Positions 184-32,415 of a DNA stretch of 36,725 nt are shown here, in pieces (position 1 is the stretch's first letter; the number at the start of each line of letters is the position of its first letter). The DNA comes from Candidatus Poribacteria bacterium (GTDB lineage Bacteria; Poribacteria; WGA-4E; WGA-3G): assembly GCA_022821965.1 (NCBI GenBank), contig JAJECN010000048.1, positions 1 through 36,725 on the forward strand. Reading direction: 5' to 3'. A program made the position numbers and the translations under genes. The notes beneath the pieces are model-generated. The model saw nothing but the letters and a program-made list of their open reading frames with translations. It searched no databases and was not told the DNA's origin.

Positions 184-2322
184 CTACGAATCTTCAGCCT
201 CAATCCGCACAGCACAGAATTTCAACTCAGGTTGCTTAGACACCGGATCAAACGCTGGATTCGTCACGTAATTCGCATTGGTCTCGGCGTGGAAGAGATC
301 CCCCCAATGGAACGGCGTAAAAAGCAAGCCACGCCGAATTTCTTCCGTGACCCGCGCCCGCGCATAACACCTTCCACGTCGTCCAACAAGATAGACCCAT
401 TCACCATCTTGAACATCGTTTTCCACCGCATCGTCCGGATGGATTTCGACAAAGGGTTCCGGGTCCTTACGGGCAAGCTGCGGCACCCTACCCGTCCGAG
501 TGCGGGTATGCCACTGACTTGCCACACGTCCCGTTGTCAGACCGAGCGGGAACTCCTCATTCGTATCTTCATCGGGTGGCTTATAGACAGGCGTTTTGAA
601 TTGTGCTTTCCCAGATTCCGTGAAAAACTTCCTGCGTGTGTACCGCCGAGGTGTTCCGGGATGCCGTGGATAAGGACAGGGCCAACGCAGAGATGTTTTC
701 GCGAGACGTTCATTCGTCATCCCCATCTGATCACACGGCGTGCCAGCTGTCAAAAGCCGGTATTCATCCCATACCTCCTCAACCGTGTAGAAGTCGAAAT
801 TCCGCTTGTATCCCATCGCCTTTGCGACCTGCGTGAATATCCACCAATCCGGTTTCGCCTCACCGGGAGGTATGAGGAATTGGTCGCTTCGGACGACGAG
901 CCGTTCGCTATTCGTCATTGTGCCTTGCTTTTCACCCCACTGTGCTGCGGGAAGCAGTACATCCGCATATTCCGCGGTCTCTGTCGGGTAATAGCAATCT
1001 TGCACGATGACCAAATCAGCACGGCGGAGTCCCGCCTGCGATACCTTTGTATCGGGCATACTGACCGCTGGATTCGTGCAGGCGATCCAGAGTGCGCGAA
1101 CCTCACCTTTAGCCGCTGCCTCAAACATCGGTACCGCCGTTAAACCGGGTTTAGGGTCAATGCTGCCGGGTGGCACACGCCAAGCACCCTCCAGATAAGC
1201 ACGGTGCATGTCATTGGTGACGACGCGATAACCGGGCAACTGATGCGACAAGTAACCGACCTCTCTACCCCCCATCGCATTCGGTTGTCCCGTCAACGAA
1301 AACGGACCGGCACCCCTTATGCCAACCTCACCCAACTGGAGGTGCAGGTTGATGAGGGCGACATTCTTGTCAACACCGCTCGTGCTCTGATTGGTGCCTT
1401 GGCAGTAAAAACTGAGCAAACGACTCGGCTTAGAAAGGTATTCAACGATCTCATCAATACGCGCGGGGTGAATATCGCACGCAGCGAGAAGCGCATCCTC
1501 GTCCAAACTATCCAAATGGTTTTCGTACGCACTGAAGTCTTCAGTGTTCCTTCGGACGAAACGACTGTTAACCCGTCCTATCGCAAGGAGGCGTTTGGCA
1601 ATGAGTTGGAGGAAGGCAACATCGCTTCCGGGTGCTAACGGCACATGAATATCTGAAAATTCCGCTGTCTTGCTGCGCCGCGGATCTACGGTGATGATCC
1701 GTGTATTCGGCTCTACTGCTCGCCGTTTCCGAATCATCTGGAAAAGAACGGGGTGATTCACCGCCATATTCGCACCGATAATCAGAAAGACATCGGCGTG
1801 CTGGATGTCATCATAGCAGGTCGGCGGACCGTCTGAACCGAACGCCTGCATGTAACCGACCACAGCAGAGGACATACAGAGACGACTATTCGTGTCCACG
1901 TTATTCGTACGGAGGAATCCTTTGAACAATTTGTTGAAAACGTAGGAAGCCTCTGTGTCCAACTGTCCAGAGCCATAAAGCGCGATGGAATCTTTGCCGT
2001 GCTCCAATTGGATTTCGTGAAGTCGGTTCGCAGTGAAAGCGATAGCCTCATCCCATGAAACTTCGCGAGGCGGTTCACCCCGACGATCGCGAATCATAGG
2101 GTATGCCAGTCTTCCATCATGGTTTTGAAAAACTTGTTTGAGATGTGCACCTTTTGGACAGAGCATACCGTAATTTGGGGCGACATCGTCGTCCGCTGAA
2201 ATCCTTGTAATTTTATTCTCTTGGACGGTTGCGCGGATGACGCAACCGACTCCACAATAAGGACATACCGCTTTTCCTGTTTTTTTATCTTTCCTGGCGG
2301 TTCGGTCAGGTAGGTTGTGCAT
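184..2322 (-). CDS. narB: Assimilatory nitrate reductase catalytic subunit (molybdopterin, 4Fe-4S)
   Basis: Reduces nitrate to nitrite in the cytoplasm using Mo-bis-MGD and one 4Fe-4S cluster, with electrons probably from ferredoxin. Near the N-terminus is CPYCGVGC, and a fourth Cys lies in LCPKG 29 residues after the last of these; together they ligate the cluster. The Mo-ligating Cys is in NSRLCMSS. A C-terminal molydop-binding domain follows (FPLGLTTGR, HPDDA). The ATG at 2320-2322 (712 aa) is preferred, with AAGGA about 11 nt upstream. A GTG at 2397 would add 25 residues encoded by two copies of an intergenic repeat and has no ribosome site. It is last in the order nasT-nirA-narK-narB, close behind narK. 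Length and motifs fit NarB/NasA; no NasB-like FAD subunit is present. Confidence 0.93.
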   Translation of the reverse strand: MHNLPDRTARKDKKTGKAVCPYCGVGCVIRATVQENKITRISADDDVAPNYGMLCPKGAHLKQVFQNHDGRLAYPMIRDRRGEPPREVSWDEAIAFTANRLHEIQLEHGKDSIALYGSGQLDTEASYVFNKLFKGFLRTNNVDTNSRLCMSSAVVGYMQAFGSDGPPTCYDDIQHADVFLIIGANMAVNHPVLFQMIRKRRAVEPNTRIITVDPRRSKTAEFSDIHVPLAPGSDVAFLQLIAKRLLAIGRVNSRFVRRNTEDFSAYENHLDSLDEDALLAACDIHPARIDEIVEYLSKPSRLLSFYCQGTNQSTSGVDKNVALINLHLQLGEVGIRGAGPFSLTGQPNAMGGREVGYLSHQLPGYRVVTNDMHRAYLEGAWRVPPGSIDPKPGLTAVPMFEAAAKGEVRALWIACTNPAVSMPDTKVSQAGLRRADLVIVQDCYYPTETAEYADVLLPAAQWGEKQGTMTNSERLVVRSDQFLIPPGEAKPDWWIFTQVAKAMGYKRNFDFYTVEEVWDEYRLLTAGTPCDQMGMTNERLAKTSLRWPCPYPRHPGTPRRYTRRKFFTESGKAQFKTPVYKPPDEDTNEEFPLGLTTGRVASQWHTRTRTGRVPQLARKDPEPFVEIHPDDAVENDVQDGEWVYLVGRRGRCYARARVTEEIRRGLLFTPFHWGDLFHAETNANYVTNPAFDPVSKQPELKFCAVRIEAEDS

Positions 2323-2361
2323 TTTTTTTAATTTTCCTTGCGGTTCGGTCAGGTGGGTTAG
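2281..2361 (-). repeat. Two tandem copies of a short dispersed repeat upstream of narB
   Basis: Two related units (2281-2317 and 2324-2361) share GCGGTTCGGTCAGGT followed by a GGTT core, each preceded by a T-rich tract. A third, slightly diverged copy lies at 14893-14921. In the narB frame the repeat reads as LTEPQGK and LPDRTARK, so it either supplies the 5-prime end of the gene or forms its leader. The units are too short to be an insertion sequence. No function is evident. Confidence 0.6.
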
Positions 2362-2408
2362 GTATTTAGCGTGCTTGTCCGTAGAACTGTTCTCCACTTC
2401 GTTACGGA

Positions 2409-3761
2409 CTACGCGCTTTGTATAACATCCGCTTTCAGACGTTGTCTCTCTGCAAGTGCTGCATCAAACGCCCTTCTCTCCTCGGCTTGGACTGCAGGTG
2501 AGAACCTGACTAACACCGTAGCAAACGAAGCGACTGTAACCATTATACCGAGATATAACAAGCCTTGCTGCATCGTGATACTCTCGGAACGGAACAGGAA
2601 ACCAGCAGCAACAGCACCCGCGTTTCCACCCGCACCAATAATACCGGCAACAGCCCCTAACGCCTTTCTGTTGATAAAAGGAACAATTCCATAAGTCGCC
2701 CCTTCAGACATCTGCACGAAAAGGCTGAAAACAATCATCGTTCCAACAGCAAGCACGAGAACTGCCATCTGTGAAAATAGCACAAGCATGACTCCTTCAC
2801 CTAACAGAACGACGAAGAGAAACATGACGCGTCCACGGAGTCCCATCCTTTTTGCAAAGAAATCGGAGAAAAACCCACCGAGGGTCCGCGCAAAGATATT
2901 CATTAACCCGAACAACCCTGCGATGAGTCCCGCGGTTTTGACATCTAATCCAAACCTGTCATGATAGTAGAGTGCCGCGACATTGTTAATAGTGAGTTCC
3001 ACGCCAAAACAGACGGCATAAATAACAAAGAGTGCCCATACACGGTAATCTTTAATCGCCAGCATAAAGGACTCCATCCCCTTACCTTTTGCAGGTTCAA
3101 GGTCACCTCGCTCCCGAAGTTCTTTATAGTTTCCATCCGGGGCGTCTTGCGTAAAGAAGTAATACGCAAAACCGGTGATAAATAGGGCAACCCCAGGAAT
3201 AATCATCGCCAGTCGCCATCCAAGGAATTCGTTCACACCGAAACTGAGAATAGCTGTAAAGATAAGAGGCATCACCATCTGTGTAACACCGCCGCCGAGA
3301 TTGCCCCATCCTGCCGTCGTCGCATTCGCTGTGCCGACACAATTGGGGGCGAACATTACCGACGTGTGATACTGCGTGATGACGAACGAAGCACCAATAG
3401 CACCGATCGCTAATCGAAAAAGGAGAAATGTTTCATAATTTTGGGCGAGTCCGATACCCATGACAGGCAGTGAACCGAGAATCAGAAGCCATGTATACGC
3501 CTTTCGGGAACCGACTTTGTCGCAGAGTGGTCCGATTAAGACACGAACCAGTACCGTAATCGCTACGGAAGCGATAATCGTATTACCAATCTGCGCTTTC
3601 GTTAACATCAGGTCTTCACGGACAATCGCCATAAGAGGGGCAATGCCGAACCACCCGAAAAAGGCTAAAAAGAACGCAAACCATGTCGTATGAAAGGTTC
3701 GCATCTGGATTGTTTTTAAACTAAAGAGATTTATATGTGTTGCTTTATTTTTAATATCCAT
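2409..3761 (-). CDS. narK: MFS nitrate/nitrite transporter (NNP family)
   Basis: A 450-residue major facilitator with about 12 hydrophobic segments, predicted to carry nitrate (and perhaps nitrite) across the inner membrane. The nitrate signature AGWGNLGGG is in the fifth helix region and a second Gly-rich motif, GAGGNAGA, near helix 11; both mark the NRT2/NarK-NasA family. The ATG at 3759-3761 has GGAG six bases upstream. It sits between nirA and narB, so it supplies substrate to the assimilatory enzymes; with no respiratory narGHJI in view, a respiratory role is unlikely. The N-terminus has a short hydrophilic extension of about 20 residues before helix 1. Confidence 0.93.
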   Translation of the reverse strand: MDIKNKATHINLFSLKTIQMRTFHTTWFAFFLAFFGWFGIAPLMAIVREDLMLTKAQIGNTIIASVAITVLVRVLIGPLCDKVGSRKAYTWLLILGSLPVMGIGLAQNYETFLLFRLAIGAIGASFVITQYHTSVMFAPNCVGTANATTAGWGNLGGGVTQMVMPLIFTAILSFGVNEFLGWRLAMIIPGVALFITGFAYYFFTQDAPDGNYKELRERGDLEPAKGKGMESFMLAIKDYRVWALFVIYAVCFGVELTINNVAALYYHDRFGLDVKTAGLIAGLFGLMNIFARTLGGFFSDFFAKRMGLRGRVMFLFVVLLGEGVMLVLFSQMAVLVLAVGTMIVFSLFVQMSEGATYGIVPFINRKALGAVAGIIGAGGNAGAVAAGFLFRSESITMQQGLLYLGIMVTVASFATVLVRFSPAVQAEERRAFDAALAERQRLKADVIQSA

Positions 3762-3823
3762 AAACTTCTCCGACTTTTGAATAGCCGTTTGAGACCATTT
3801 CCAAGTCGAAATTTTCCTTTCTT

Positions 3824-3865
3824 ATTATAAATGTTAATTTTACTTGTGCGCACTAATAGCGCGCA
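3824..3865 (-). promoter_or_regulatory. Possible narK promoter with an upstream inverted repeat
   Basis: On the minus strand a perfect TATAAT (3824-3829) lies about 60 bases before the narK ATG. An inverted repeat, TGCGC-9-GCGCA (3847-3865), overlaps the place expected for the -35 box, which itself matches the consensus poorly. This suggests an activator- or repressor-controlled promoter separate from the nirA leader. The evidence is the -10 box and the palindrome only. Confidence 0.35.
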
Positions 3866-3887
3866 GGTTTACGTTCACCCGCCCGCT

Positions 3888-5465
3888 TTACCTCCGTGAA
3901 AGGTAAGGAACGAGTCCTTCAAGTACCTGCGGTAAATCGTCGCAGGGTACATTTTCCAATAGCTTCGGAGCGACTTTAGGGTCTGCCCCAGCATTCCCCT
4001 TGAAAAATACGTCCACCGCATCCGTAACAACCCCATCAATCTTAATCTTCTTGCCGAGCAGTCCGATGTCCGCGGCAGCGTGGTTGCCGCATCCATTAGG
4101 ACACCCAGACCAATGGATCGTCAGGGGTTTTGTATTGCCGAGTTTTGCTTCCAAATGCCGAATCGCTTCCATCGCCCGTTCTTTCGTTTCAATAAGCGAG
4201 AAGTGACAGTAGTCGATCCCCGTGCAACTCACCATCCCGCGCATGATCTCTGACGGGTCATAGCGGAGTTCCTGTAGGAGCGGTTCGGCGGTTAAGTCGC
4301 CTATTTTTGTGTCCGGCACGTTGGTAATAATCAGATTCTGCCCTTGGGTGAGGCGAATGTCGCCGTTCCCGTATTCATCCGCGAGTCGGGCGACCTCAAA
4401 AAGTTGTGCCGTCGTGATACGTCCGACCGGTACAACAAGCCCGATGTAGTTGAGGTGTGGTTGTTTCTGTGAGAAAATACCTGTGTGGTCGGTCTTGCGC
4501 TTACCACGCACATCTTTACCCGCTGTCAGGAGCGGTTGTTTTCGGTGCCGCCGCCTTTCTAATTCTTCCCGGAAGTTTCCTACACCCCAATCCGCAATTA
4601 GAAAAGCAAGGCGAGATTTATTGCGAGCTGTTCGAGGCCCGTGATCTCGAAAAATTAGCGTAATGTCTGCACACAAAACTGCTGCTTCTTCAGGGGTAAT
4701 AAACACATCAAGCGGTTGCGCGAGTGTGTAACCACCAGATCCCATCTTTCCACCAACAGCAACGTTAAAGCCGTTCGTCTCTTGACCTTCAATTTCCTTT
4801 ACAGCCGGCGTAAGGGCAATGTCCTGTGAGGCTGTATGCGTACAGTTATCCAAACATGCCGTGATACCGACATTAAACTTACGCGGAATATCGGTAAATT
4901 CCTTGTTGCCGACAATGAGACTTGTGAACTCCCTGGCAACGTGTGAAGCATCAAAGAGTTCATTGGGTGTTAATCCCGCAACCGGACATCCAATCACACC
5001 ACGAATGTTGTCAAAACCTGTTTGGAGTGAACCTAAACCGACCTCTTCAAGCCGATTCCAGATGTGCTGAACGTTCTCGATTGCGAAACCTCGGAGTTGA
5101 ATCTGCTGACGCGTCGTAAGATCCACGAATCCCGGTCCGTGTGCCTCACTTATTTCGGCAATGGTGCGGAACTGCTCGGAGTTACTAAAACCACTGGACA
5201 TACGGAGCCGCATCATGAATGCGCCAGGGGTCTGCTTTCGGTAAAAGACACCTACCCACTTGAGTCGGTCGCGTTCGTTGGCTGGAATCGATTCCCATCC
5301 ATCCCGAATGTAGTTCGGAATGTCATTGATTACCTCAAGTCCGTTTTTCTGCTGCTTGAGGAGTTCTGCAGCATTTATCTTGGACTTTCGTTTTTTCCCA
5401 GCCGCTGTTGGTGCCGAACGCACCTTTCTGTTTGACAGAACAGTCTTCTTTTTTAATTCGTTCAC
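3888..5465 (-). CDS. nirA: Ferredoxin-nitrite reductase (siroheme, 4Fe-4S)
   Basis: Catalyses the six-electron reduction of nitrite to ammonium with ferredoxin as donor. The 525-residue protein has the usual duplicated ferredoxin-like plus siroheme half-domains. The cluster and siroheme ligands are visible as C414 and C420 (SCTGIDYC) and C455 and C459 (SGCPNGC). The first half carries GVIGCPVAG and the matching fold. The Lys/Arg-rich first 30 residues are extra relative to the family core. The start is GTG at 5463-5465, supported by a strong AAGGAGG seven bases upstream. It follows a 360-base leader with a terminator, so expression is probably gated by NasT. A sulfite reductase is the closest alternative; linkage to narK and narB favours nitrite. 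Confidence 0.93.
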   Translation of the reverse strand: MNELKKKTVLSNRKVRSAPTAAGKKRKSKINAAELLKQQKNGLEVINDIPNYIRDGWESIPANERDRLKWVGVFYRKQTPGAFMMRLRMSSGFSNSEQFRTIAEISEAHGPGFVDLTTRQQIQLRGFAIENVQHIWNRLEEVGLGSLQTGFDNIRGVIGCPVAGLTPNELFDASHVAREFTSLIVGNKEFTDIPRKFNVGITACLDNCTHTASQDIALTPAVKEIEGQETNGFNVAVGGKMGSGGYTLAQPLDVFITPEEAAVLCADITLIFRDHGPRTARNKSRLAFLIADWGVGNFREELERRRHRKQPLLTAGKDVRGKRKTDHTGIFSQKQPHLNYIGLVVPVGRITTAQLFEVARLADEYGNGDIRLTQGQNLIITNVPDTKIGDLTAEPLLQELRYDPSEIMRGMVSCTGIDYCHFSLIETKERAMEAIRHLEAKLGNTKPLTIHWSGCPNGCGNHAAADIGLLGKKIKIDGVVTDAVDVFFKGNAGADPKVAPKLLENVPCDDLPQVLEGLVPYLSRR

Positions 5466-5578
5466 CTTTGAACCTCCTTAGCATGGCTGTTGGTCATCGG
5501 TCATCAGTTTTCGGTTAATATCCTATGGCAGTCAATTTTTGGGTTGCTATCACCCATGGTCTCTGACTGACAACTCAT

Positions 5579-5626
5579 AAAAAAAGGCATCTATCAGCGA
5601 GTATAAAACTCAGCCAGATAGACACC
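5579..5626 (-). terminator. Intrinsic terminator inside the nirA leader (attenuator)
   Basis: On the minus strand a stem pairs GGTGTCTATC with GATAGATGCC (10 bp including two G-U pairs), with an internal loop and a GAG/CTC top. It is followed directly by seven T residues. It lies about 115 bases upstream of the nirA start and downstream of two other hairpins, so it would stop transcription before nirA unless antiterminated. No gene lies between it and nasT, and nasT ends 200 bases earlier, so it is not simply the nasT terminator. Confidence 0.8.
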
Positions 5627-5636
5627 TGTGTCCAGT

Positions 5637-5718
5637 CCCAAACCACCATTGGTTGGGTATCGTCAATATAACCTGCCCGTAGAGCCGAGGGGATTTGGTC
5701 TTTAAATAGACCAAATCC
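5637..5718 (-). promoter_or_regulatory. Tandem hairpins in the nirA leader, probable ANTAR (NasT) RNA target
   Basis: Read on the minus strand, the first hairpin (5691-5718) has a perfect stem GGATTTGGTC/GACCAAATCC that can extend one pair to leave hexaloop ATTTAA. The second (5637-5657) has a stem CCCAACC/GGTTTGGG with one bulge and hexaloop AATGGT. Known ANTAR targets are two stem-loops with hexaloops carrying A at position 1 and G at position 4. The second loop fits fully; the first has A1 but U at position 4. The attenuator terminator begins 10 bases further on, and nasT is the adjacent gene. Confidence 0.7.
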
Positions 5719-5827
5719 GTTCCTTGTATTACATTCCTTGCCCCTACTGAGCAAAATAAGCAATTCTAATGTGCCCGCGCTGTTCCCCCTTGAACACACG
5801 CAGTTTCAGTGAGAATGGATATCCCAC

Positions 5828-6457
5828 CTATAATTTATTCGTCAATACTTCCGCAACCGATAGTATGTCTTCCGAGATTTCTGCCAGACGTTTCCTACGG
5901 TTCATCGCCATCTTTCGCAAAATTTGATACGCCTGCGCTTCGTTACAGCCGCGTTGCTGTGCTACCAGTTCCTTTGCGCGTTCGATGATTTTGCGTTCGG
6001 CAAGGCTTGTCTTTGTCTTCTCAAGTTCCTGTTGTAACGCTCGGAATTCATAAAATCGAGCGACAGCTGCTTCAATAATGGTTTTAACTCGGGCACCAGT
6101 AAGTTTTCCGACAGCATACGCGGACACACCGGCGCGCGTCGCGGCTTGGATCGTTTCCGATCGCTCATCTCGTGAAAACATGACTGTCGGGCATGGATAA
6201 CTTTCGTGGAGAGACGCGACCCAACTGAGTATCGCGTGCCCCGGAAAATCGACACCAACCAGTATAATGTCTGGCTTTACCAGTGCAACTTGTTCAGCCA
6301 CACCTTCCTGTAGACGCACAGGCACAGCAACTTTGTAACGACTGGCTTTCAGAATATCGATTAAAGAATTCGCCCGCTCCGGATTGTTATCAATGATTAA
6401 GACTCGCCCCTTCCCAGTAACAGGTGGGGATTCCGGTGTTGAGGTGACCGTTTCCAT
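5828..6457 (-). CDS. nasT: NasT-like ANTAR-domain transcription antiterminator
   Basis: A 209-residue protein with an N-terminal receiver-like domain (about 17-125), a helical linker (130-155) and a C-terminal ANTAR RNA-binding domain (about 145-203, with SLAERKIIERAK and AYQILRKMAM). Proteins of this family bind paired RNA hairpins and block a terminator ahead of nitrate-assimilation genes. The position expected for the phosphoacceptor Asp is Gly68 (ILVGVDFPG), so control by phosphorylation is unlikely. In known cases a nitrate-binding NasS protein sequesters NasT; no NasS is in this window. The ATG start has AAAGGGTAGAGG just upstream. It lies directly upstream of the structured nirA leader, on the same strand. 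Confidence 0.88.
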   Translation of the reverse strand: METVTSTPESPPVTGKGRVLIIDNNPERANSLIDILKASRYKVAVPVRLQEGVAEQVALVKPDIILVGVDFPGHAILSWVASLHESYPCPTVMFSRDERSETIQAATRAGVSAYAVGKLTGARVKTIIEAAVARFYEFRALQQELEKTKTSLAERKIIERAKELVAQQRGCNEAQAYQILRKMAMNRRKRLAEISEDILSVAEVLTNKL

Positions 6458-6522
6458 CCTCTACCCTTTCCCAAGTTAATTCAACGCAATGTGCTGAAAA
6501 CAACAAGGAATGTTAACCTTAC

Positions 6523-6550
6523 ACAATAGCATTAGCAAAAACCTTGCCAA
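6523..6550 (-). promoter_or_regulatory. Possible nasT promoter
   Basis: On the minus strand TTGGCA and TATTGT are separated by 16 bases, 66 bases before the nasT ATG and downstream of the terminator at 6597-6623. Each box matches four of six consensus positions, so the call is tentative. Confidence 0.3.
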
Positions 6551-6596
6551 AAACGCTGAACACTGATTTTTCTAAGGCGCGCAAGACTTCTGCAAA

Positions 6597-6623
6597 ACAA
6601 AAACCCCACGGAGTGCCCGCGGG
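6597..6623 (-). terminator. Intrinsic terminator after the methyltransferase gene
   Basis: On the minus strand CCCGCGG-GCACT-CCGTGGG forms a 7-bp stem with one G-U pair and a five-base loop, followed by GTTTTTGTTTTG. It lies about 110 bases past the methyltransferase stop and ahead of nasT, separating the two transcription units. Between it and the stop is a direct repeat of CCTATTTTTTTAGCA (6637-6651 and 6669-6683). Confidence 0.7.
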
Positions 6624-6729
6624 ATGTAAATTTTTGCCTATTTTTTTAGCAGAAAACAGGCGTTTTTTCCTATTTTTTTAGCAATAAGGAGTTTATGAGA
6701 ACGTCATCACGCTGCGCCTTACATGAACG

Positions 6730-7395
6730 TTATGCCTCGCGACGCACGGTGTAAATACAAACTTCGCAGATTTGCCCATCTAATGTGACAGGACAGATAG
6801 ATTTTTGATGGACAAAACCGTTATCGCAGAGTTGTTTGAAAAATCCAATCGCGTTACTTCGGCTCGGTTCGGAGAAGAGGGCAACCCCGTTAGGCGCGAG
6901 ATACCCTTGAAGTAAATTCACGATCGGTGTCCAGTGATGTTCTTCGTAAATAACATCGGCAGCGAGAATATACGGAAATTTGTGATTGAAGCAGGGCGCG
7001 TTCCAATCCATCTGGACGAAATCGGCATGCTGGTGAACACCGTTCTGATCTGCGTTATGTTGTGCGAAACGGAGTGCCTCCCGTTCTGCGTCCGTGAAAA
7101 TCACCCGCGCCCCCATCTGACAGGCGACAATTCCTGTCAATCCAAACCCACATCCAATTTCCAAGATATGTGAACCTTTTAGCCGCTCACCTATCTTCTC
7201 TATGTGGTGCGCAAGACCAATCGAAGATTCCCAGAGGTAGGTCCAGTAGGGGAGATAGAGTTTTCCTTCCTTGTCCTCTCGACCGAGTTGTTCGAGAAAC
7301 CAATCGGGTTCTTCTATAAGTGTGAGCTGGACCCGACCGGTTTTCAACTTAATGATGGTACTTGTTAGTGGGTAGTCTCGCAGTTGGATTTTCAT
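6730..7395 (-). CDS. Class I SAM-dependent methyltransferase (Methyltransf_16-like)
   Basis: A 221-residue soluble methyltransferase. The SAM-binding motif I is ILEIGCGFGLTG, followed by an acidic residue at the end of strand 2 (FTDAE) and motif IV LAADVIYEEHHW. The pre-motif YWTYLWESSIGLA resembles the METTL21/ETF-beta lysine methyltransferase group, which methylates protein lysines; the actual substrate is unknown. The ATG at 7393-7395 is chosen because the longer frame (to 7656) would run through the end of the neighbouring PurM-like gene. It is last in the cluster with the PurM-like and DUF6785-type genes, 82 bases after the former, with a terminator downstream. Confidence 0.82.
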   Translation of the reverse strand: MKIQLRDYPLTSTIIKLKTGRVQLTLIEEPDWFLEQLGREDKEGKLYLPYWTYLWESSIGLAHHIEKIGERLKGSHILEIGCGFGLTGIVACQMGARVIFTDAEREALRFAQHNADQNGVHQHADFVQMDWNAPCFNHKFPYILAADVIYEEHHWTPIVNLLQGYLAPNGVALFSEPSRSNAIGFFKQLCDNGFVHQKSICPVTLDGQICEVCIYTVRREA

Positions 7396-12511: not shown

Positions 12512-14125
12512 TTACTTGATTATATCCCCAGCACTTTCAGTCGGGATATAATAATAACCGAAGATAATGCACATCTCATCCTCAGACGTAAGGCCGAATA
12601 TGAGTGGTTCATTTGTATCGTAGTTGTTGTGGACACATTGGAACTTGATTGTATCATCCGAATCTAAGCGGAGGACTGGATCAAAAAGGTCAATGGGGGC
12701 ATCGTCGTAAGCGACACTCCGATGCAGTAAATCGCCTGTTGAGCCCTGAAAAATTTCAAACAGTTCGCCGTGCCGATGCATGTGAGATGTTAATAAAAAG
12801 ATGTTTAACGCTGTCGTCGGGTCGTGCCCTCTGCGCTCCAACTCATCTTCAATATACCATGTCATTTTAGCGACACGCGTTGTTCCAGGTGGCACGTTAA
12901 TTTGACGATTAGAAACGAAAATTTCAACTGCCTCGTATTGGACTTCTTCCTCTGGAATCGTATAGATGTTAACGTAGGTTTCGCCAATCAGCGTCTCGTC
13001 ACCGAGCAGATTGATGTAGTGCGAATTGAGGTCGTAAAGAGTGTCGCCGGGCAGTCGTAAGCCTACACCTTCAGGGAACTCAAAGAGGGTATCATCGGTT
13101 TGCGTTCCAACAACGAAAAGCCTATCAACACCAAAATTGCCGAGTACCAGCGGATCATCTGTGTCAAGTTCACGGAAAGCATCTGCTGGATCAACACCAA
13201 TTCCAGGTGTGATACCCCTCCCTGGAACACCGTTCGCCAAACCTTCTTCGGTAAACCGATATAGAATGAAGTGATGGCTACCAGCAGGATAGAAAATCTC
13301 TACTCTATTAATAAAGATGTCTCCCTGTACCGGATCTCCGTTTTCATCAGTGATTTGGGTGGCGTAGTAAATTTCCCGTTCAGTCCCGGGTTCAATCTTG
13401 AACTGCGGTAAACGAAGTTGATACCCTTCTCCAAGTGGTGGTGGCGCGGGCGGTTCAAACTTTTCGTCAGGATCGCGTAGGACACCGAGGTCCCCGATCC
13501 CTGCTATTTTACCGGTCTGTGGCGCGCCTGCCTCAATCCATGTACGAACCGCATCTATTTTCCCAGTGTGGAGTACACCGCCACCAAATGGCATTCTGGC
13601 ACCCTGTTCCGGTGCTGCGGGTCCCATCAGTTTCGTTAACAGAAAACTGTTCTCTGGATTGCCCGGGTCAACGAGTTTCATACCTGCTGCCGCTGCCGCT
13701 GGGTTGTTTGGGACAGCCCCAACCAAATTTTCGTAAGAAAATCCGTAGGTGAGATTCAAACCAAAAGAATTTGAAGGTGGCGCGTGGCAGGCACTGTTCG
13801 CACAACTCCTATCAAATACGTACTCCTGAATATCGTGATACGCTGAGTTTTCATCGGGGGCAGTTTGTCCAAAACTATTGCTCACCCGAACGAGGTCCAG
13901 GATATTGATGATCCCATCGCGATTTACATCAGGATCCTGCTCCGCATTGCGATCCCTCGGTTGTCCAAAGGACGCAGAGACAAGCACTAAGTCTTGGATA
14001 TTCACGATCCCATCTTTGTTAACATCCTCCAGCAGCGTCGGAAGATTACCGTGCCCAAGTGCAGAAAAGGACACACCACCTACCAGCAGAAGAATGAGCA
14101 TAGAATAAACGATTTTTTTAAACAT
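12512..14125 (-). CDS. Secreted dockerin + cytochrome c + copper type II monooxygenase-like protein
   Basis: A 537-residue exported protein. In order: signal peptide (1-24); two dockerin-like calcium loops (DVNKDGIVNIQDL, DVNRDGIINILDL); a heme c site CANSACH (C108, C113, H114; CX4CH spacing) in a cytochrome-like domain with a late MPFGGG; then a domain resembling peptidylglycine and dopamine beta-monooxygenase. All six expected copper ligands are in order: H284-H285 (SHHF), H369 (NSHYI), H448 and H450 (SHMHRHG), M518 (DEMCI). It probably hydroxylates or otherwise oxidises an organic substrate outside the cytoplasm, with the heme domain as a built-in electron relay; the substrate is unknown. 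The ATG at 14123-14125 is used; an upstream TTG lies inside the GGAGG motif. Confidence 0.8.
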   Translation of the reverse strand: MFKKIVYSMLILLLVGGVSFSALGHGNLPTLLEDVNKDGIVNIQDLVLVSASFGQPRDRNAEQDPDVNRDGIINILDLVRVSNSFGQTAPDENSAYHDIQEYVFDRSCANSACHAPPSNSFGLNLTYGFSYENLVGAVPNNPAAAAAGMKLVDPGNPENSFLLTKLMGPAAPEQGARMPFGGGVLHTGKIDAVRTWIEAGAPQTGKIAGIGDLGVLRDPDEKFEPPAPPPLGEGYQLRLPQFKIEPGTEREIYYATQITDENGDPVQGDIFINRVEIFYPAGSHHFILYRFTEEGLANGVPGRGITPGIGVDPADAFRELDTDDPLVLGNFGVDRLFVVGTQTDDTLFEFPEGVGLRLPGDTLYDLNSHYINLLGDETLIGETYVNIYTIPEEEVQYEAVEIFVSNRQINVPPGTTRVAKMTWYIEDELERRGHDPTTALNIFLLTSHMHRHGELFEIFQGSTGDLLHRSVAYDDAPIDLFDPVLRLDSDDTIKFQCVHNNYDTNEPLIFGLTSEDEMCIIFGYYYIPTESAGDIIK

Positions 14126-18537: not shown

Positions 18538-21084
18538 TTACTTCCGTATGACCATTCTCCGAGTCATTGAAGTCTGTCCAGCGGACAGCGTGTAGAGATA
18601 GACACCGCTTGCGACAGGCTCGCCGAAAGAATTTTTTCCATCCCAATACGCTGCGGCTTTTCTGTCCTGGTATTCACCCGCAGACTTGTATCCCAATCTG
18701 AGGGTCCGTACCAGTGTTCCGTTTGCCGTATAGATATGCACGGTGACTTCTGCAGGCTTTGAAAGCTGATACGGTATCCACGTTTCTGGATTGAACGGAT
18801 TTGGATAGTTGGGCAGCAGCGCAGTCTTTTTTGGTGACAGGGCTCCTAAAAGACGTTCAAGGATAGCGATTCCTTTCTGGAAGGTAGGTGTTGTGTTACC
18901 AACTTGCTGCGCATGGGTTAGCCATAACTGCACGTCCGCTATGGTGAACATCTCTCTCATCTTGGAATGCGCGGCAGGTGCACTATCGCCGGCACCGAGT
19001 GAACCGGCAACCAGAACGAGGTCCACGATGTTGACGGTGCCGTCAACGTTCACATCCGCGTTATTCGCACCCAATTGCCCGAAACGCGAAGCAACAAAAG
19101 TTAAATCGTGGTGGTTCACCACACCATCCGAATTTACATCCTCACGTCTTACGGTTATGTCTGTTGTTGGTGTGAAATCCCAGAGTAGCACTGTGCCGTC
19201 GGAGTTCCCAGTTAGGAGTGTAGTGCCATCGGGACTGAAGATAACACCTGAGATCACATAGGTTTGTATGGGGAGCGTTGCTTTGTGTATACCGGTATCA
19301 ACGTCCCATAGCCGGACCGTTCCGTCATTCCAACTGCCGCCACTTGCGAGAGTTCTCCCGTCTGGACTGAACGCAACACTTGTAATCCAACCTGTATGTC
19401 CGACAAGCGTTCGTATGTGTCCACCACTCATTGTATCCCAGAGTCTTATTGTTTGATCCCAACCAGCACTGGCGAGGATTTTCCCATTCGGGCTAAATGC
19501 GACGGACAGAATCTTGTCCGTGTGTCCGGTTAGTGTCATTATGTGCGTTTTAGTGTTAACATCCCATAGCCGGACAGAATCATCGTCACTACCGCTGGCA
19601 AGGGTCTGACTATCCGGACTGAAAGCGATTGCGGTGATACCCGATACATGCCCAGAAAGTGTGGCTATGTGTGTGCGCCCGTCAGCGAGCCATAACTGTA
19701 TTGTCTTTTGATCACTTCCACTTGCAAAGAAACGTCCGTCGGGACTGAAGGCGATTGCACGACTGCCTGATCCGCTGGCACCTCTTCCGATATACGCTTT
19801 AAGGATTGACTTGTGTGTTCCAGTCGCAACATCCCAGAACCGTATATTCCAACCAATCTCACTTGCGAGTGTGCGTCCGTCCGGACTGAAGGCTAATTTC
19901 GTATTACCCCATCTACTCTCAAAGAGCATTGCTTTTTGGGATAGCGTAACGGTGTCCCATAGGTAGATCTTCTCTCTGCTTCCAGTCGCAACTGTTCGAC
20001 CGTCGGGACTCAATGCGAACCCAGAATAGCCGATTGTATGTCCGGTAATCGTTCCTTTTTGTGCACCGGTGGCACTGTCCCAGAGATATAACTCGTCGTA
20101 ACCGCCACTTGCAATTGTACGACCATCAGGACTGAAGACAATTGAAGAGATTCTTTCTACATGTCTGGTGAGTACGGCTTTTTGTGTGCCACTGGCAAGG
20201 TCCCATAGACGTAAATCTGCCCCGGCACTCATCGCGAGCGTACGGCTATCAGGACTAAATGCTAAACGAGAGATTCCTGAGCTTGATTTGAGTGTCTGTT
20301 TATGTGCTCCTGTGACGGCATCCCACAACTCCACATTGTTTTCCTGAGAGCTCACACTTGCGAGTGTTTTCCCATCTGCGCTGAATGCGAGTGCTGAGAT
20401 ACTTTGGATATGGTCTTCGAGGGTCGCTTTGAGTTTTCCGGTGTTGACATCCCACAAACGGACTGTGCCGCTCAAACTACCTGTTGCGAGCGTTTTCCCA
20501 TCAGGGCTGAAGGTAACAGGTCTAACGGCATCTCTATTTTCAGCGGCATCTGTATGTCCGTCGAAGGTAACTAAGTGTTGACCAGTGTCAACGTCCCACA
20601 ACCGCGCTGTTTTGCCCCTGCTGCTGGTTGCGAATGTTTTACCATCCGGGCTGAATGCCATACTATAAACATTACCCGTATGTCCTATTAGATTTGATTT
20701 CTGTTGGCGAGTGGTGAGATCCCATAGTGCCATGGTGTGATCTCTACTTCCGATTGCAGCCATACTGCCATCCGGACTCAAGCCGGAGATGTTACCCGTT
20801 AGCGGATAAGCGTTGAACAGCTCGAGTGCCGCTCCAGTGTGTGCATCGTAAGTCCAAGTACCGAGGGAACTTAATACGATAAGGTGGTTCCCGTCTTTCG
20901 AGTACGCGATGGCACTAACAATTCCTTTTCCAAGACGCGCACGTGCGCCCTCTGGTAAGGAGAGTTGATCATTGTTTCGCGCTACTGTTTCGGCATTCAA
21001 ATACTGTATTGGCGTGAAGGAGATTGATATATATAGAATCGAAACGATAGATAATGTGTGTGTGAAAAAAAGAGAATGCTTCAT
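18538..21084 (-). CDS. Secreted WD40 protein with dockerin pair and FlgD-like C-terminal module
   Basis: An 848-residue exported paralog of the next gene. It has a signal peptide (about 1-30), 14 recognisable WD40 units (about 50-650) suggesting two seven-bladed propellers, two dockerin-like calcium loops (DVNSDGVVNHHDL and DVNVDGTVNIVDL), a helical stretch with VQLWLTHAQQ, then the NYPNPFNPETWIPYQL FlgD-Ig module ending RRMVIRK. Dockerins normally bind cohesins, but none is in this window, so the partner is unknown. The ATG has a strong GGGAGG upstream. An exact sigma-54 promoter match lies 45 bases before it. The pair probably arose by tandem duplication. Confidence 0.88.
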   Translation of the reverse strand: MKHSLFFTHTLSIVSILYISISFTPIQYLNAETVARNNDQLSLPEGARARLGKGIVSAIAYSKDGNHLIVLSSLGTWTYDAHTGAALELFNAYPLTGNISGLSPDGSMAAIGSRDHTMALWDLTTRQQKSNLIGHTGNVYSMAFSPDGKTFATSSRGKTARLWDVDTGQHLVTFDGHTDAAENRDAVRPVTFSPDGKTLATGSLSGTVRLWDVNTGKLKATLEDHIQSISALAFSADGKTLASVSSQENNVELWDAVTGAHKQTLKSSSGISRLAFSPDSRTLAMSAGADLRLWDLASGTQKAVLTRHVERISSIVFSPDGRTIASGGYDELYLWDSATGAQKGTITGHTIGYSGFALSPDGRTVATGSREKIYLWDTVTLSQKAMLFESRWGNTKLAFSPDGRTLASEIGWNIRFWDVATGTHKSILKAYIGRGASGSGSRAIAFSPDGRFFASGSDQKTIQLWLADGRTHIATLSGHVSGITAIAFSPDSQTLASGSDDDSVRLWDVNTKTHIMTLTGHTDKILSVAFSPNGKILASAGWDQTIRLWDTMSGGHIRTLVGHTGWITSVAFSPDGRTLASGGSWNDGTVRLWDVDTGIHKATLPIQTYVISGVIFSPDGTTLLTGNSDGTVLLWDFTPTTDITVRREDVNSDGVVNHHDLTFVASRFGQLGANNADVNVDGTVNIVDLVLVAGSLGAGDSAPAAHSKMREMFTIADVQLWLTHAQQVGNTTPTFQKGIAILERLLGALSPKKTALLPNYPNPFNPETWIPYQLSKPAEVTVHIYTANGTLVRTLRLGYKSAGEYQDRKAAAYWDGKNSFGEPVASGVYLYTLSAGQTSMTRRMVIRK

Positions 21085-21479: not shown

Positions 21480-22316
21480 TTACGACCAGACGAATACTTC
21501 ACCATCGTCCGGAGAATATCCGATAAAGACTGCCAAGACGATTCGGGCGCGTGTGCCTTGAACGGGTGGCACTTCGTGGATACACCGCGTGTTGAAAAAG
21601 TAAAGATCGCCCTGCTGCAGATCAACCTGATAGTTCTCTACCCCATTTTCAGCGGCATACTTGTCAAAGGTTTCTTCAGCGATATGGGGCTGAATCTCCT
21701 CCGACCAGAGACACCGATGCAAGATGGCTTGCGTGCCTTTTCCGTTTTCGTCCGCGTTTTGGACACACAGCACGCCTGCAAACTGGTGCTCGAAACGATA
21801 AACTTCATAATCGGTGCGTTGCTCACGATATTTGACATGATCGATGTGTGGCTTGTAGCTATGGGTTTCGTAGTGGACGCGGAAAATGGCAGGCCCGTAG
21901 CGTGAGCCGTCCGATTCACGGGCAACCTTAACCTCTTTTCCAGGGGAAAGCGCGTCAAGGGAGTCATAGATAAGGTTGACTGGATTCGTAAACCCGTCAA
22001 ATAGGAATTTAAAGAGATGCTCTGTCTCCTTGGCGTGTGCCAAAAATTTCGCTTTATCACTGCCACGATTGCCAAGACTGGTACCGATGTCAATACGGGT
22101 GCGTCTGTCAGCGGAGTTGATGTCGGCTTCGTCGCGCATCAAGCCCATATTTGTGAACCGATGAATGAGTCCTTGGCATTGGGCGGGTGAATAGGCATTC
22201 CGAAGAATGATGGCGGGTACTTCGGCTTGGGAGAGGGAATAGATTGGGTCGCTGTACGTTTTACAAACTGTCTTGAGATCAGGCTCTGCGGGGAGCCAGT
22301 TGTTTCTGGCACTCAT
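21480..22316 (-). CDS. 2OG-Fe(II) oxygenase (prolyl-4-hydroxylase-like fold)
   Basis: A 278-residue putative dioxygenase. The iron triad is visible as H157-x-D159 (PHIDH) and H247 (RCIHEVPP), with R256 or R258 (GTRARIV) to bind the 2-oxoglutarate carboxylate. It therefore probably hydroxylates an unknown substrate with O2 and 2-oxoglutarate. It differs from the two PhyH-family genes nearby and looks closer to 2OG-FeII_Oxy proteins. The ATG at 22314-22316 has GGAGG six bases upstream; the longer frame to 22397 would overlap the ATPase gene and was rejected. It lies 40 bases after the ATPase/nuclease gene, so they may be cotranscribed. Confidence 0.82.
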   Translation of the reverse strand: MSARNNWLPAEPDLKTVCKTYSDPIYSLSQAEVPAIILRNAYSPAQCQGLIHRFTNMGLMRDEADINSADRRTRIDIGTSLGNRGSDKAKFLAHAKETEHLFKFLFDGFTNPVNLIYDSLDALSPGKEVKVARESDGSRYGPAIFRVHYETHSYKPHIDHVKYREQRTDYEVYRFEHQFAGVLCVQNADENGKGTQAILHRCLWSEEIQPHIAEETFDKYAAENGVENYQVDLQQGDLYFFNTRCIHEVPPVQGTRARIVLAVFIGYSPDDGEVFVWS

Positions 22317-22356
22317 GGTAACCTCCGTCGCTCTATTAAGAGGACCGCGATTCAGA

Positions 22357-23973
22357 CTAAACCTCTGAAGGGCGTTTTTGCATAACAGGAATAACATAAC
22401 TCCGAATGGTCAGTCCATCCAAGGTGTCTGTTTCCAATTGCGGCTTGGGATTTTCTCGATGATCGAAAACGATATAGTAGCCTTCCGTTGCCCCTTCGGA
22501 CTTCAGGTATGCAGCGAGCTGCTGCTTTCCTACCTGATAATGTCGTTCGCTTCGCCATACCTTTGTTTCGATGATGTATTGCTGTCTGTTGTGTGAGATA
22601 ATAATATCTGCTCTGCCTCTACCAGTTGGAACTTCTAACCGCATTGTAGCGTGTACAATTTTGACGAACTCATCAAGATAGGCGAAAAGAAGGTATTGTC
22701 CGACGAATTCTTTCGGTGTATCGGGGACCTGTAATATTCTGAAGCCAGCGCGTGCAATGAAATTGTTGAAGTTGTTGATAAGTGTATGCATCTGAATCCG
22801 TCCGGTTGATGTGATGTATCCTGTAAAGTCAATGGGGTCCTCTTCTGGGAGGTATTGGTCTTCAAGTCCATTGATGAGAGGTCTAAGTGCCTGGATGATG
22901 CAATGGAGATAGATAGGATTGAGGATCTGGCACATTCCGTCTTCTCCTCTTGCAATGATACCGTAAGTGGCGAGTTCACTAACAACTTCGTCATATAGAG
23001 TGAAGTTAATGCTGCTGCCATAAAAAGCGATTCGCATAAGCATTTTTTCAAAGCGCGGGTTTCTGCGGATGTTTGTAATAAGATGCTCAATGTTGGTATT
23101 TCTTTCTGCGATCAGCGCGGTATATGCTTGTGAGAAGTGGTGCATCTGAATGGTGTCGGTTTTGGGTATGTTAAGTTCTGCTGTAAGAATCTGGGCACAC
23201 CTACTAACAAGAAAGGGTTGCCCTGCGGTCTGTTTATGAAGTAAGTCAATTACTTCCGGTGCGAAGGCTTGTCCGACTTCTTCGGTATACTGTGAGAGTA
23301 GTTCGCGCACTTGCGCCGCGGTGAAGTTTGGTAATGTGAATTCATCTTGTATGTTGAAAGGTGAGATTGAGGAATCATAGTTTAATTGCGTAATGTTCTT
23401 AACGCCGACAATGCCGACACTGTACGGGGAGCGGACCTCGCGACCTGTAAGATATATCCGGCGGAGTGTATGGAGAAAATCACTGACAATGGTTTGTGGG
23501 ATACCGTCAAATTCGTCGATAAGCAGAGCAAGGCGCGGCGGTACGCGTGTGGAGAGTTCGTCCATAAGCATACGTGGCAATTGCCGAAAGAAACGCCGCA
23601 TTGCGGCGTGGCTGGTCATTTGTGTATGCTCCAAAAATTGGAGGAGTTCCGGGGAAGGTATGAGGTTGCGGGATGCAAACCCTTCCTCAATTTCCTCGCG
23701 AATATCTTCAAGGAGATCTGCGTAAAAAACCTCAGGCGTATAATTTTTACACATCTCAAAATTAAGTTGGATCGAGAAATAGACATTGGCATCGTCTGCA
23801 AGCGTCTTGAGAACTTCTTGGAAGAACGTGGTTTTGCCGCTCTGTCGGGGGGCGAAGAGCACGATGTATCGTCCCTTTTTAACGCGGTTAATGTAATCAG
23901 CAAGTTCCTCGCCGCGCGAAACGACATAGTGTTCCTTGGAATTGACGGGACCTTGCGTTCCAAATTCTCTCAC
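22357..23973 (-). CDS. AAA-like ATPase with C-terminal PD-(D/E)XK nuclease-like domain
   Basis: A 538-residue protein. An N-terminal STAND/AAA-type ATPase has Walker A APRQSGKTT (41-49) and Walker B LALLIDEFD (D153, E154), followed by a helical winged-helix-like region (about 200-370). The C-terminus has the nuclease pattern D456...E469-x-K471 (ADIIIS, IIETKVW). The family is common in Poribacteria-like and cyanobacterial genomes and its role is unknown; a defence or mobile-DNA function is only a suggestion. The GTG at 23971-23973 is chosen because AGGAG lies seven bases upstream and the protein then begins REFGTQGPV, as is usual for the family. An upstream ATG at 24018 lacks a ribosome site. 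Confidence 0.8.
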   Translation of the reverse strand: MREFGTQGPVNSKEHYVVSRGEELADYINRVKKGRYIVLFAPRQSGKTTFFQEVLKTLADDANVYFSIQLNFEMCKNYTPEVFYADLLEDIREEIEEGFASRNLIPSPELLQFLEHTQMTSHAAMRRFFRQLPRMLMDELSTRVPPRLALLIDEFDGIPQTIVSDFLHTLRRIYLTGREVRSPYSVGIVGVKNITQLNYDSSISPFNIQDEFTLPNFTAAQVRELLSQYTEEVGQAFAPEVIDLLHKQTAGQPFLVSRCAQILTAELNIPKTDTIQMHHFSQAYTALIAERNTNIEHLITNIRRNPRFEKMLMRIAFYGSSINFTLYDEVVSELATYGIIARGEDGMCQILNPIYLHCIIQALRPLINGLEDQYLPEEDPIDFTGYITSTGRIQMHTLINNFNNFIARAGFRILQVPDTPKEFVGQYLLFAYLDEFVKIVHATMRLEVPTGRGRADIIISHNRQQYIIETKVWRSERHYQVGKQQLAAYLKSEGATEGYYIVFDHRENPKPQLETDTLDGLTIRSYVIPVMQKRPSEV

Positions 23974-29427: not shown

Positions 29428-32415
29428 TTATTTTTCTGCAAGCGAAATGTGATATATCCCGCGATCTTTGATAGCACTATAGAGCTTATCGTTAATGACG
29501 GCGAGATCAACAGTTTCACCGAGTGCTTCTGAAGAAATTTGTTTCCATTGATTACCGGTATCCAAGCGATAGACTCCGATATCGCTAATGCCACAGATTG
29601 TAGTACCAGCCACAGCAAATCTGTCTATGATAGGACGCGTACCCGCGCTATTGGTTAGCACGCGCCAGTGCGCGCCAGTTTCTGAGCTTAACACACCTTC
29701 GTCTGTTGCGACATAAACTGTTGAATCTGCAAAGGTTATCTCCTTGAAACGGGTAAAGTGAAGCGGTAGGCTTGGCGTAACATCTCTCCAGCTGTTCCCG
29801 CCATCAAGCGACTGAAACAGCTTACCATCGCGTTTCCCGACATAGATGGTTTCTCCCAAAACCGCTAATTTGAGATCCTGGCTGTCGTTGTCATAAGACT
29901 GTTCGCTTCTGTCTGTTAATCCTGTGTTTGTCCACTCCGGATCACCAAGTTTCCACTTAAAAAGTCTACGGTCCTGCTCAGCATAGAACACATCGTTACA
30001 GACTGCGACCATTCTGGCTTTCGTGTCCTTCCCACGTATAGGAGGTGGAACGATTGGAATGGTTGCGTGATGCACTTTTTCAGAACCTTCAGATAGGTAA
30101 GTCTCTTTCGCTGCCTCGCCACTTGTCTCTAACTTACCGAACAGTGCTTCATCATCAAAAGCGGGCATGCTTTGAATAGGACTTTGTATATTGCCATCTG
30201 TGGATAAGCGGAAAATTCGCAAGTTGTCATCTTTAGGTGAAATAAAATAAAGATTGTTGTTATCAACCACCAATTTTGAATCAAAAGAGGTATAGACACG
30301 AGTCCTATCCGGCCCTAATGATTCAGTACAAGTCACCTTCAGAAAAGGTATCTCGGCAATTGAGAGATCTTTCCAAGACACACCTTCGTCAGTTGATTGA
30401 TACAGCGCGAAGCCATTATGCGCGTATAATCTGTTGTTGCAGGCAACCAAATCCTGTAGCCTTGTTCCCACCATCCCATCTGTAAGTAGGCGCCCCGACT
30501 CCCCACCATCAGTTGTCCGGAAAATACCGAAGGGTCCAGCTTTGTAAAATGTATTCTCATTCACCACCACAGATGGAAGCCTATTAACCATGAGCATATC
30601 CGTATCTCCTACCATTTCTGTCCACGTTTGTCCGTTATCTGTTGAACGATATCGGTACTCGGCAGTCGAAGCTAAGAGGATTTCACGTCCAGCCGAAATC
30701 ATCATGCCCGCTGGTACCACTCGATCATCGGATTTATAATTGGGTGTTATTTCAGTCCATGACGCTCCGAAGTCAGCCGAATGGAAGATCTTAATCGCAT
30801 ACGACTCAATTTTTGGCACTTCTTGTTCTATTCCTATTGGCGTGAATCCCAACAGCTCCGGTCCTGTCCCAATGTAGAGATTCTTCTCAAACACCGCCAA
30901 GGAGTAGATGGCTCTTGACATCTCCACCGGCAATTTTTTCCAAGTGTCTGCATTGAGACGGTAGAGACCGCGCGCTGTACCCGCGAACACTGTTTTTTCA
31001 ACAGCGGCGACTGTAGAAATTGTTTTGCTTGCTAATCCATCGTTAAATGAGTTCCATTGTGTGCCGCCGTCTGTGGATCGAAAAATTCCTTCATCTCTAA
31101 GCGCAAGATACATCGTCCGACGTGCGTGCGAGCTGCGCGCTTGTGCCTCATCAATAATGATGAGTCCAACGGCTTGTCCCTTTGGTCTGGGACCAATCGT
31201 CCGCCATGTTTCACCGCTATTATCTGAAGTAAATATTTCATCGGTGGATACTATGTAAAGGATACCATCATGTTCTGCCATCGGCATTAGCGATTTACCA
31301 ATTGGAATATCCGTGTTGATGCGTGTCCACGTTGTCGCATCTGTTCCTAATCTGTATATTCCTGTCGGGGCAACAGCATAGACGGTCCCTTCAGATGTAG
31401 CGAAAATGTCGCGGACGTGTCCCCCTGGTGGCGCGCCTCCCTGCGTCCACCGCCCGGTAGAAAATTTGGCAGGGTCCTCTACAGATGCTGTCGTAGTTGT
31501 AGAGACTTGTGTGCCGGTGCCACTGCTTTTACCGACAGTAGCAGCCTGTCCAACTCGGTTTCGTACCGCTGGTTTTGCGGTAATATTGAGAATGATAGGT
31601 GTGTCAATGATTTCAATAGTAGGTTCAGATTGTGCTTCAAAACTGTACGGTTTCTGAAAACGCACAAGATATTGGGCACTCGCACCGAGTAGCAACATGA
31701 CCAGGACAGCAGCAGTTCCAAAAGCCGCCCATGGCAGCAAAGGCTTACCAACCGGAGGCGGTGTCGGTTTCATATTAGCGACTTCCTGCATGATACGCTC
31801 AGTTACTCGGGCAGGGAATGGAATACTCCCAAGTGTTTCGCTAACCAAAAATTCTTCCTGCTGTTCCTGTAAACGTTTCCGACCCCGGCGGAGTCGACTC
31901 TTAATCGTATTCACCGACACCCCTAAGTATTTTCCGATCTCCTTCGCGGTCATTTCGCCGAGATAGTGGAGTGTCACCACCGTACGTTCACTCTCCGGGA
32001 GTTTTACCAGAAGTTTTTTGACGAGTTCATGGCGATTTTCGGTGGTCTCTGTCAGCCGTTGTTCCGATACGTGATGTGTGTAAGAAGATTCTTCGATTTC
32101 TTCCACAGGTGTGTCCTCAAATGATTGCATCACAGATTTGTTCTTTATGTTTTTTTCAAGCCATTTAAGGCAAAGCCGATTGGCAATTACGTAAATCCAT
32201 CCGGAGAACTGCTTCGGATTCCTGAGCTGCGCGAGGTTCTTGTATACTTGGAGGAAAGTGTCTTGGGTAATCTCCTCGGCAATGTGGAAGTCACCGACTT
32301 TTCGCCATGCAAGGGCGTGAATACCCTTTTGGTGCTTTCGGACTAAAACATTAAATGCCTCATCATTCCCTGATAAAATTCTACGAATTAGTTGAACATC
32401 GTTTTCTTTTTCCAT
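29428..32415 (-). CDS. Transmembrane ECF sigma factor fused to an extracytoplasmic BNR-repeat propeller
   Basis: A 995-residue fusion. Residues about 9-88 are sigma region 2 (EEITQDTFLQVYKNL, FSGWIYVIANR) and about 130-183 region 4 (LPESERTVV, TAKEIGKYLGVSVNTIKSRL). A short linker leads to one membrane helix (about 227-251), then about 745 residues outside. That part carries at least seven Asp-box/BNR motifs (for example SDNSGETW, STDGGTQW, STDNGQTW, SLDGGNSW), fitting one or two beta-propellers. The helix would place the sigma domains in the cytoplasm and the propeller in the periplasm or outside, so it may sense a surface ligand directly, with or without proteolytic release. The ATG has GGAG seven bases upstream. 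No anti-sigma gene is adjacent. Confidence 0.85.
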   Translation of the reverse strand: MEKENDVQLIRRILSGNDEAFNVLVRKHQKGIHALAWRKVGDFHIAEEITQDTFLQVYKNLAQLRNPKQFSGWIYVIANRLCLKWLEKNIKNKSVMQSFEDTPVEEIEESSYTHHVSEQRLTETTENRHELVKKLLVKLPESERTVVTLHYLGEMTAKEIGKYLGVSVNTIKSRLRRGRKRLQEQQEEFLVSETLGSIPFPARVTERIMQEVANMKPTPPPVGKPLLPWAAFGTAAVLVMLLLGASAQYLVRFQKPYSFEAQSEPTIEIIDTPIILNITAKPAVRNRVGQAATVGKSSGTGTQVSTTTTASVEDPAKFSTGRWTQGGAPPGGHVRDIFATSEGTVYAVAPTGIYRLGTDATTWTRINTDIPIGKSLMPMAEHDGILYIVSTDEIFTSDNSGETWRTIGPRPKGQAVGLIIIDEAQARSSHARRTMYLALRDEGIFRSTDGGTQWNSFNDGLASKTISTVAAVEKTVFAGTARGLYRLNADTWKKLPVEMSRAIYSLAVFEKNLYIGTGPELLGFTPIGIEQEVPKIESYAIKIFHSADFGASWTEITPNYKSDDRVVPAGMMISAGREILLASTAEYRYRSTDNGQTWTEMVGDTDMLMVNRLPSVVVNENTFYKAGPFGIFRTTDGGESGRLLTDGMVGTRLQDLVACNNRLYAHNGFALYQSTDEGVSWKDLSIAEIPFLKVTCTESLGPDRTRVYTSFDSKLVVDNNNLYFISPKDDNLRIFRLSTDGNIQSPIQSMPAFDDEALFGKLETSGEAAKETYLSEGSEKVHHATIPIVPPPIRGKDTKARMVAVCNDVFYAEQDRRLFKWKLGDPEWTNTGLTDRSEQSYDNDSQDLKLAVLGETIYVGKRDGKLFQSLDGGNSWRDVTPSLPLHFTRFKEITFADSTVYVATDEGVLSSETGAHWRVLTNSAGTRPIIDRFAVAGTTICGISDIGVYRLDTGNQWKQISSEALGETVDLAVINDKLYSAIKDRGIYHISLAEK

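Follow-up and report, generated by a model that had tools for sequence, protein, structure and literature searches.

A predicted exported poribacterial protein that joins a dockerin, a c-type cytochrome and a PHM-type two-copper domain

A gene in the window, the 36,725-nucleotide stretch of a 5.69 Mb Candidatus Poribacteria genome analysed here, encodes a predicted exported protein that joins a dockerin, a c-type cytochrome domain and a complete two-copper domain of the peptidylglycine/dopamine monooxygenase (PHM/DBM) type. Metal ligands of both redox domains are conserved among its relatives, the modelled copper domain has the PHM fold, and the gene is present throughout its taxonomic family. 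With moderate confidence, we favour the reading that the protein is an exported copper monooxygenase powered by its own cytochrome, in which heme c would relay electrons to the copper site CuH and then to CuM.

Gene and protein layout

The gene was read from an ATG at 14125 to a stop codon at 12512-12514 on the minus strand; the first-pass annotation had given no strand. Residue numbers in that annotation (C108-C113-H114, H284, H285, H369, H448, H450 and M518) match numbering from this ATG. From the N- to the C-terminus, the protein is composed of a signal region, a dockerin, a cytochrome domain and a PHM-like domain (Table 1). It contains four cysteines in 537 residues, two of them within the CX4CH motif.

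Table 1. Features of the gene and of the protein it encodes, in window positions.
Feature	Positions	Strand	Basis
Whole gene	12512..14125	minus	537 aa plus stop
Predicted signal peptide region, residues 1-25	14051..14125	minus	by eye: hydrophobic core then ALGH; modelled helix 2-21
Dockerin type I, two EF-hand loops, residues 33-84	13874..14029	minus	Pfam 40.2 bits; PDB 2y3n E 3.5e-6; Z 9.0
c-type cytochrome domain, residues about 92-205	13511..13852	minus	TIGR03806 E 4.8e-5, far under its cut-off; FoxE profile E 1e-5; PSCyt1 36/43 members
CX4CH, probable heme c site (C108, C113, H114)	13784..13804	minus	78/78 complete sequences; CXXCH in relatives
M178, proposed distal heme ligand (MP motif)	13592..13594	minus	invariant
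PHM-fold two-copper domain, residues about 231-528	12542..13435	minus	VIA Z 23.1 to PHM 6ala; profile E about 1e-15
H284-H285, predicted CuH ligands (PHM H107/H108)	13271..13276	minus	alignment
H369, predicted CuH ligand (PHM H172)	13019..13021	minus	alignment
H448-M-H450, predicted CuM ligands (PHM H242/H244)	12776..12784	minus	alignment
M518, predicted CuM ligand (PHM M314)	12572..12574	minus	alignment
C519	12569..12571	minus	with C497 (12635-12637) corresponds to PHM C293-C315 disulfide

Copper domain

The Pfam model for the C-terminal half of these enzymes, Cu2_monoox_C (PF03712), matched the protein with 39.3 bits against a cut-off of 23, and the N-terminal PHM model PF01082 gave no match at E<=1. 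A structure model was obtained with AlphaFold2 on 36 sequences (mean pLDDT 82, pTM 0.70). The first 31 Foldseek rows for this model were dopamine beta-hydroxylase (DBH) and PHM, with an E of 9e-17 to DBH 4zel. When residues 231-537 were compared with PHM 6ala by VIA, the superposition extended over 261 residues with an rmsd of 3.1 and the score given in Table 1; comparison with DBH gave Z 22.1. The model thus has the two-domain jelly-roll fold.

A profile built from 15 sequences of two families aligned with PHM over its full length (E 9e-16), and each of the six ligands fell on its PHM counterpart: HH was matched to HH, H369 to the HY, HMH to HTH and DEM to DEM. We take the CuM histidines of PHM to be H242 and H244, and the PDB titles of PHM mutants (H107A, H108A, H172A and M314I) agree with the other ligand numbers given for PHM in Table 1. 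The first-pass annotation had read the ligands HH, H, HxH and M, in that order, as two PHM-type copper sites, and had suggested structure prediction and alignment as checks. Both were run; PHM and DBH were the top fold matches, the ligands aligned to those of PHM, and two sites able to load copper are accordingly predicted from fold and alignment.

Conservation was assessed in the window gene and 78 loci, retained from the best 80 of 212 relatives; most of these loci are close relatives. The heme C/C/H and M178 were found in 78 of the 79 sequences, the exception (L114) being truncated before the cytochrome. All heme and copper ligands were also invariant in a ten-sequence alignment, A1, that reached down to 31% identity. 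When a second, approximately 24%-identical family was included, 18 columns remained invariant, among them all six copper ligands. In shuffled sequences, the six-ligand pattern arose in 2 of 4800 proteins, and an upstream CXXCH or CX4CH in 24 of 9600 stretches. Conservation together with these counts led us to reject a chance motif.

Several features are shared with PHM/DBM: the double jelly-roll fold, the six ligands in register, the DEMC motif and a cysteine pair, C497/C519, that falls on the PHM disulfide we take to be C293-C315. Both cysteines of this pair were present in 67 of 79 sequences. PHM has five disulfides; because the protein has four cysteines in total, the other four cannot form. 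Unlike PHM/DBM as known, the protein is bacterial and carries a fused cytochrome c and a dockerin.

The substrate-binding positions also differ from those of PHM. The anchors of the substrate carboxylate in PHM, presumably R240, N316 and Y318, are replaced in the 79 sequences by T or S, by I or L, and by a variable residue that is mostly F (one Y). The substrate is therefore probably not that of PHM, and a glycine-extended peptide was rejected as substrate. The loss of these anchors, along with a histidine in place of the methionine ligand in some relatives, would also suit a protein that uses the PHM scaffold for copper/heme electron transfer, or as a nitrite/NO or peroxide enzyme, and not for monooxygenation. 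We consider this improbable: the six ligands, including the methionine, were invariant in 79/79 sequences, and the methionine ligand of PHM matters for O2 activation. Monooxygenation by the copper domain is the reading we retain, as a prediction.

Cytochrome domain and probable heme site

The NCBIfam model TIGR03806, for SO2930-type cytochromes, was matched by 35 of 43 members of the family on scanning, and the PSCyt1 model by 36 of 43 (best E 4.7e-4). A profile built from the 43 cytochrome sequences matched FoxE. The region resembles SO2930/HNE_0200-type and PSCyt1-type cytochromes and FoxE in profile and in a C-terminal MP...W-I..GAP pattern, but it has a single heme site, with CX4CH and not CXXCH; FoxE carries two CXXCH hemes according to PMC10654088.

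The conserved C/C/H with a distal methionine, seen in all complete sequences (78/78), is the ligand set of a c-type cytochrome. Relatives of about 31% identity (L031 and L032) have the canonical CXXCH at the alignment position of CX4CH, and for this reason CX4CH is very probably a genuine site of heme attachment. This swap of spacing within the family is the strongest evidence for heme. Among loci of the Latescibacterota group, which kept the six copper ligands in 19/19, CXXCH was found in 13 and CX4CH in 6. A tree of the PHM part, with the heme columns left out, placed the 16 CXXCH rows of the family in one starred group beside the CX4CH rows; the tree was made by a quick method with SH-aLRT support only and carried long-branch warnings. 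Two studies of iron-oxidising organisms include CX4CH among heme motifs (PMC10734462, PMC5566968). The genome encodes three cytochrome c assembly proteins (PF01578).

Structural modelling of this region was less clear. In the full-length model, residues 109-117 around the motif had a pLDDT under 50. A separate model of the cytochrome (pLDDT 84.8) had FoxE as its best Foldseek match at a non-significant E of 1.5, and VIA gave Z 5.7-6.8, only to FoxE and to the C-terminal part of hydrazine synthase. Low model confidence and a weak fold match would fit a reading in which CX4CH is instead a disulfide or another metal site and the protein a dockerin-PHM enzyme. Against this stand the invariance of the histidine and the distal methionine, the CXXCH of relatives at the same position and the match to the FoxE profile, and we regard an absence of heme as very unlikely.

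Dockerin and anchoring

Two dockerin loops had been noted in the first-pass annotation, and both held up: the EF-loops DVNKDGIVNIQDL and DVNRDGIINILDL lie in a region that matched Dockerin_1 well above the cut-off of 22.9 bits and superposed on a solved dockerin (Table 1). The dockerin is not special to this protein, since dockerin matches were found at 48 other places of the genome (51 rows, from which the row of this gene and two that covered only the cytochrome end were subtracted). Fifteen cohesin matches over cut-off were found in the same genome; in a control search, cohesins were over cut-off in 1 of 14 genomes. Comparison of the two tables placed 10 of the 15 cohesin matches in open frames that also hold a dockerin match. 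Because the genome encodes cohesins, it is possible that the dockerin binds one of them and places the putative enzyme on a scaffold.

An EF-loop pattern upstream of the heme site was present in 72 of 81 sequences. The nine others include the truncated L114 and L127, which has EF-hand-like repeats outside the pattern. The remaining seven have no EF-hands; five carry a lipobox (L115, L126, L128, L031 and L032) and two a plain signal (L123 and L124). Two sequences, L106 and L116, combine a dockerin with a lipobox-like stretch. Dockerin and lipid anchor thus look to be mostly alternatives across the family, which suits an attachment role for the dockerin.

Distribution and gene neighbourhood

All 58 genomes examined in the taxonomic family carried the gene, 38 of the genus (including the window's own) and 20 of other genera. 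Across the phylum, 65 of 84 genomes matched the A1 profile at E<=1e-30. Outside the phylum, matches were obtained in 27 of 64 genomes of the Latescibacterota group at E<=1e-20, some by part of the profile, and in 4 of 199 genomes of the Planctomycetes group, one by the cytochrome part only. Members from KSB1 and Armatimonadetes were also recovered (L126 and L128). In one relative, L038, the gene is present as two adjacent copies (3715-7040, minus strand).

Neighbouring genes for a glycosyltransferase, a homocysteine methyltransferase/MTHFR and a DUF6785 protein recurred in 46-51 of 81 stretches compared and were absent from the distant relatives listed. For that reason the neighbours say nothing of function, and we rejected an assignment of substrate from them. 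No conserved redox or substrate partner was found among gene neighbours in the 81 stretches.

Fusion types and split genes

A second type of PHM-domain protein, found in the genus and common in Planctomycetes, combines an AhpC/redoxin domain with a CXXCH cytochrome and a PHM domain. As in the window protein, the cytochrome precedes the PHM domain, with a redoxin where the window protein has its dockerin. The two types are about 24% identical and lie on opposite sides of a starred tree branch, and their profiles align (E 7e-14) through both the heme motif and the positions of the copper ligands. A further type (L162) is a cytochrome-PHM protein without redoxin.

PF03712 occurs once in the window's own genome and in 38 of 294 Planctomycetes genomes. 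CXXCH was found within the PHM-domain ORF in 29 of 30 planctomycete loci, the exception being a 321-aa ORF without a cytochrome part (L203). The pattern scan itself recorded the ligand pattern in 29/30 and CXXCH in 26/30; in L225, L227 and L228, CXXCH was seen by eye. From these counts and the single PF03712 match in the window's own genome, the PHM domain is nearly always accompanied by a cytochrome in the bacteria sampled.

Two genomes of the Latescibacterota group (G433 and G435) have a PHM-like gene followed directly by a CX4CH cytochrome gene on the same strand, both with a lipobox-like start and in the reverse of the fusion's order. The split pair is not an exact stand-in for the fusion because a histidine replaces the methionine ligand: EH stands in place of DEM in the PHM-like L252 and L253, as in the planctomycete L181 and L183. 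This EH site is a variant copper site, in effect a Met-to-His substitution that occurs in nature.

Proposed mechanism

In the mechanism we propose, heme c would be held at CX4CH of the N-terminal cytochrome domain, with His114 and Met178 as axial ligands, and would take electrons singly from an external donor. Electrons would pass to CuH (H284/H285/H369) and on to CuM (H448/H450/M518), where O2 would be activated and a C-H bond hydroxylated on a substrate that is not a glycine-extended peptide. Contact between dockerin and cohesin may keep the enzyme on the cell surface or within a complex, and several relatives would use a lipid anchor instead.

The first-pass annotation had suggested that the cytochrome could replace ascorbate as electron donor. 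Co-conservation of the two domains, the second fusion type and adjacent genes support this role indirectly, and it stays putative. PHM/DBM are driven by ascorbate and need no cytochrome, there is no conserved donor gene nearby, and the direction of electron flow cannot be read from sequence. The protein might then be a genuine PHM-type monooxygenase reduced by a diffusible reductant, with the cytochrome serving redox sensing or electron outflow, as in an oxidase or dehydrogenase. We consider this rather unlikely, as the heme ligands are conserved as strictly as the copper ligands, and the pairing of cytochrome and PHM domain recurs, both in two types of fusion and in adjacent genes. The second fusion type and the neighbouring cytochrome and PHM-like genes lead us to favour a built-in donor. 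An analogy, and an analogy only, may be drawn with cytochrome-fused copper nitrite reductases and CDH-LPMO pairs, in which a heme domain feeds a copper enzyme of unrelated copper fold.

How electrons are delivered one at a time to the two separated coppers of PHM/DBM is a long-studied question. With a covalently tied donor, the electron step could be watched directly because the heme is a coloured reporter. If the proposal is correct, a family studied mainly in animals extends to uncultured bacteria, and Poribacteria, many of which are associated with sponges, gain an exported oxygen-dependent activity encoded in every family genome examined. A wider proposal, for and against which we see about equal weight, is that the two-copper monooxygenases of a large bacterial branch have built-in heme c in place of ascorbate. 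This branch would comprise two or more architectures, one a cytochrome-PHM protein anchored by dockerin or lipid and another a redoxin-cytochrome-PHM protein, and supply this Poribacteria family with a core gene whose product is displayed through cohesin-dockerin contacts.

Searches of 5.39 million open-access papers found no paper on PHM combined with a cytochrome c domain and a dockerin, and none on Poribacteria and dockerins, with or without cohesin. Nor was a cytochrome-fused PHM described among the top-ranked papers of further open-access searches. An excerpt of PMC6081418 includes six Poribacteria proteins with oxidoreductase annotation and makes no mention of dockerin.

Other genes in the window

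Four further features were observed, all on the minus strand. The gene at 21480-22397 encodes a WelO5-type Fe/2OG protein (Pfam E 2.2e-25) with the sequence H-I-D in place of H-x-G, a difference that we take to tell hydroxylase from halogenase; its product is therefore more likely a hydroxylase. A WD40 protein at 18538-21084 also has a dockerin-like match at 18784-19149. At 29428-32415, a 995-aa protein combines an ECF sigma factor with a Vps10/BNR-type propeller, the two being connected by a hydrophobic segment. The region 184-6457 holds a nitrate assimilation-like cluster with a molybdopterin oxidoreductase, an MFS transporter, a nitrite/sulfite reductase and an ANTAR regulator.
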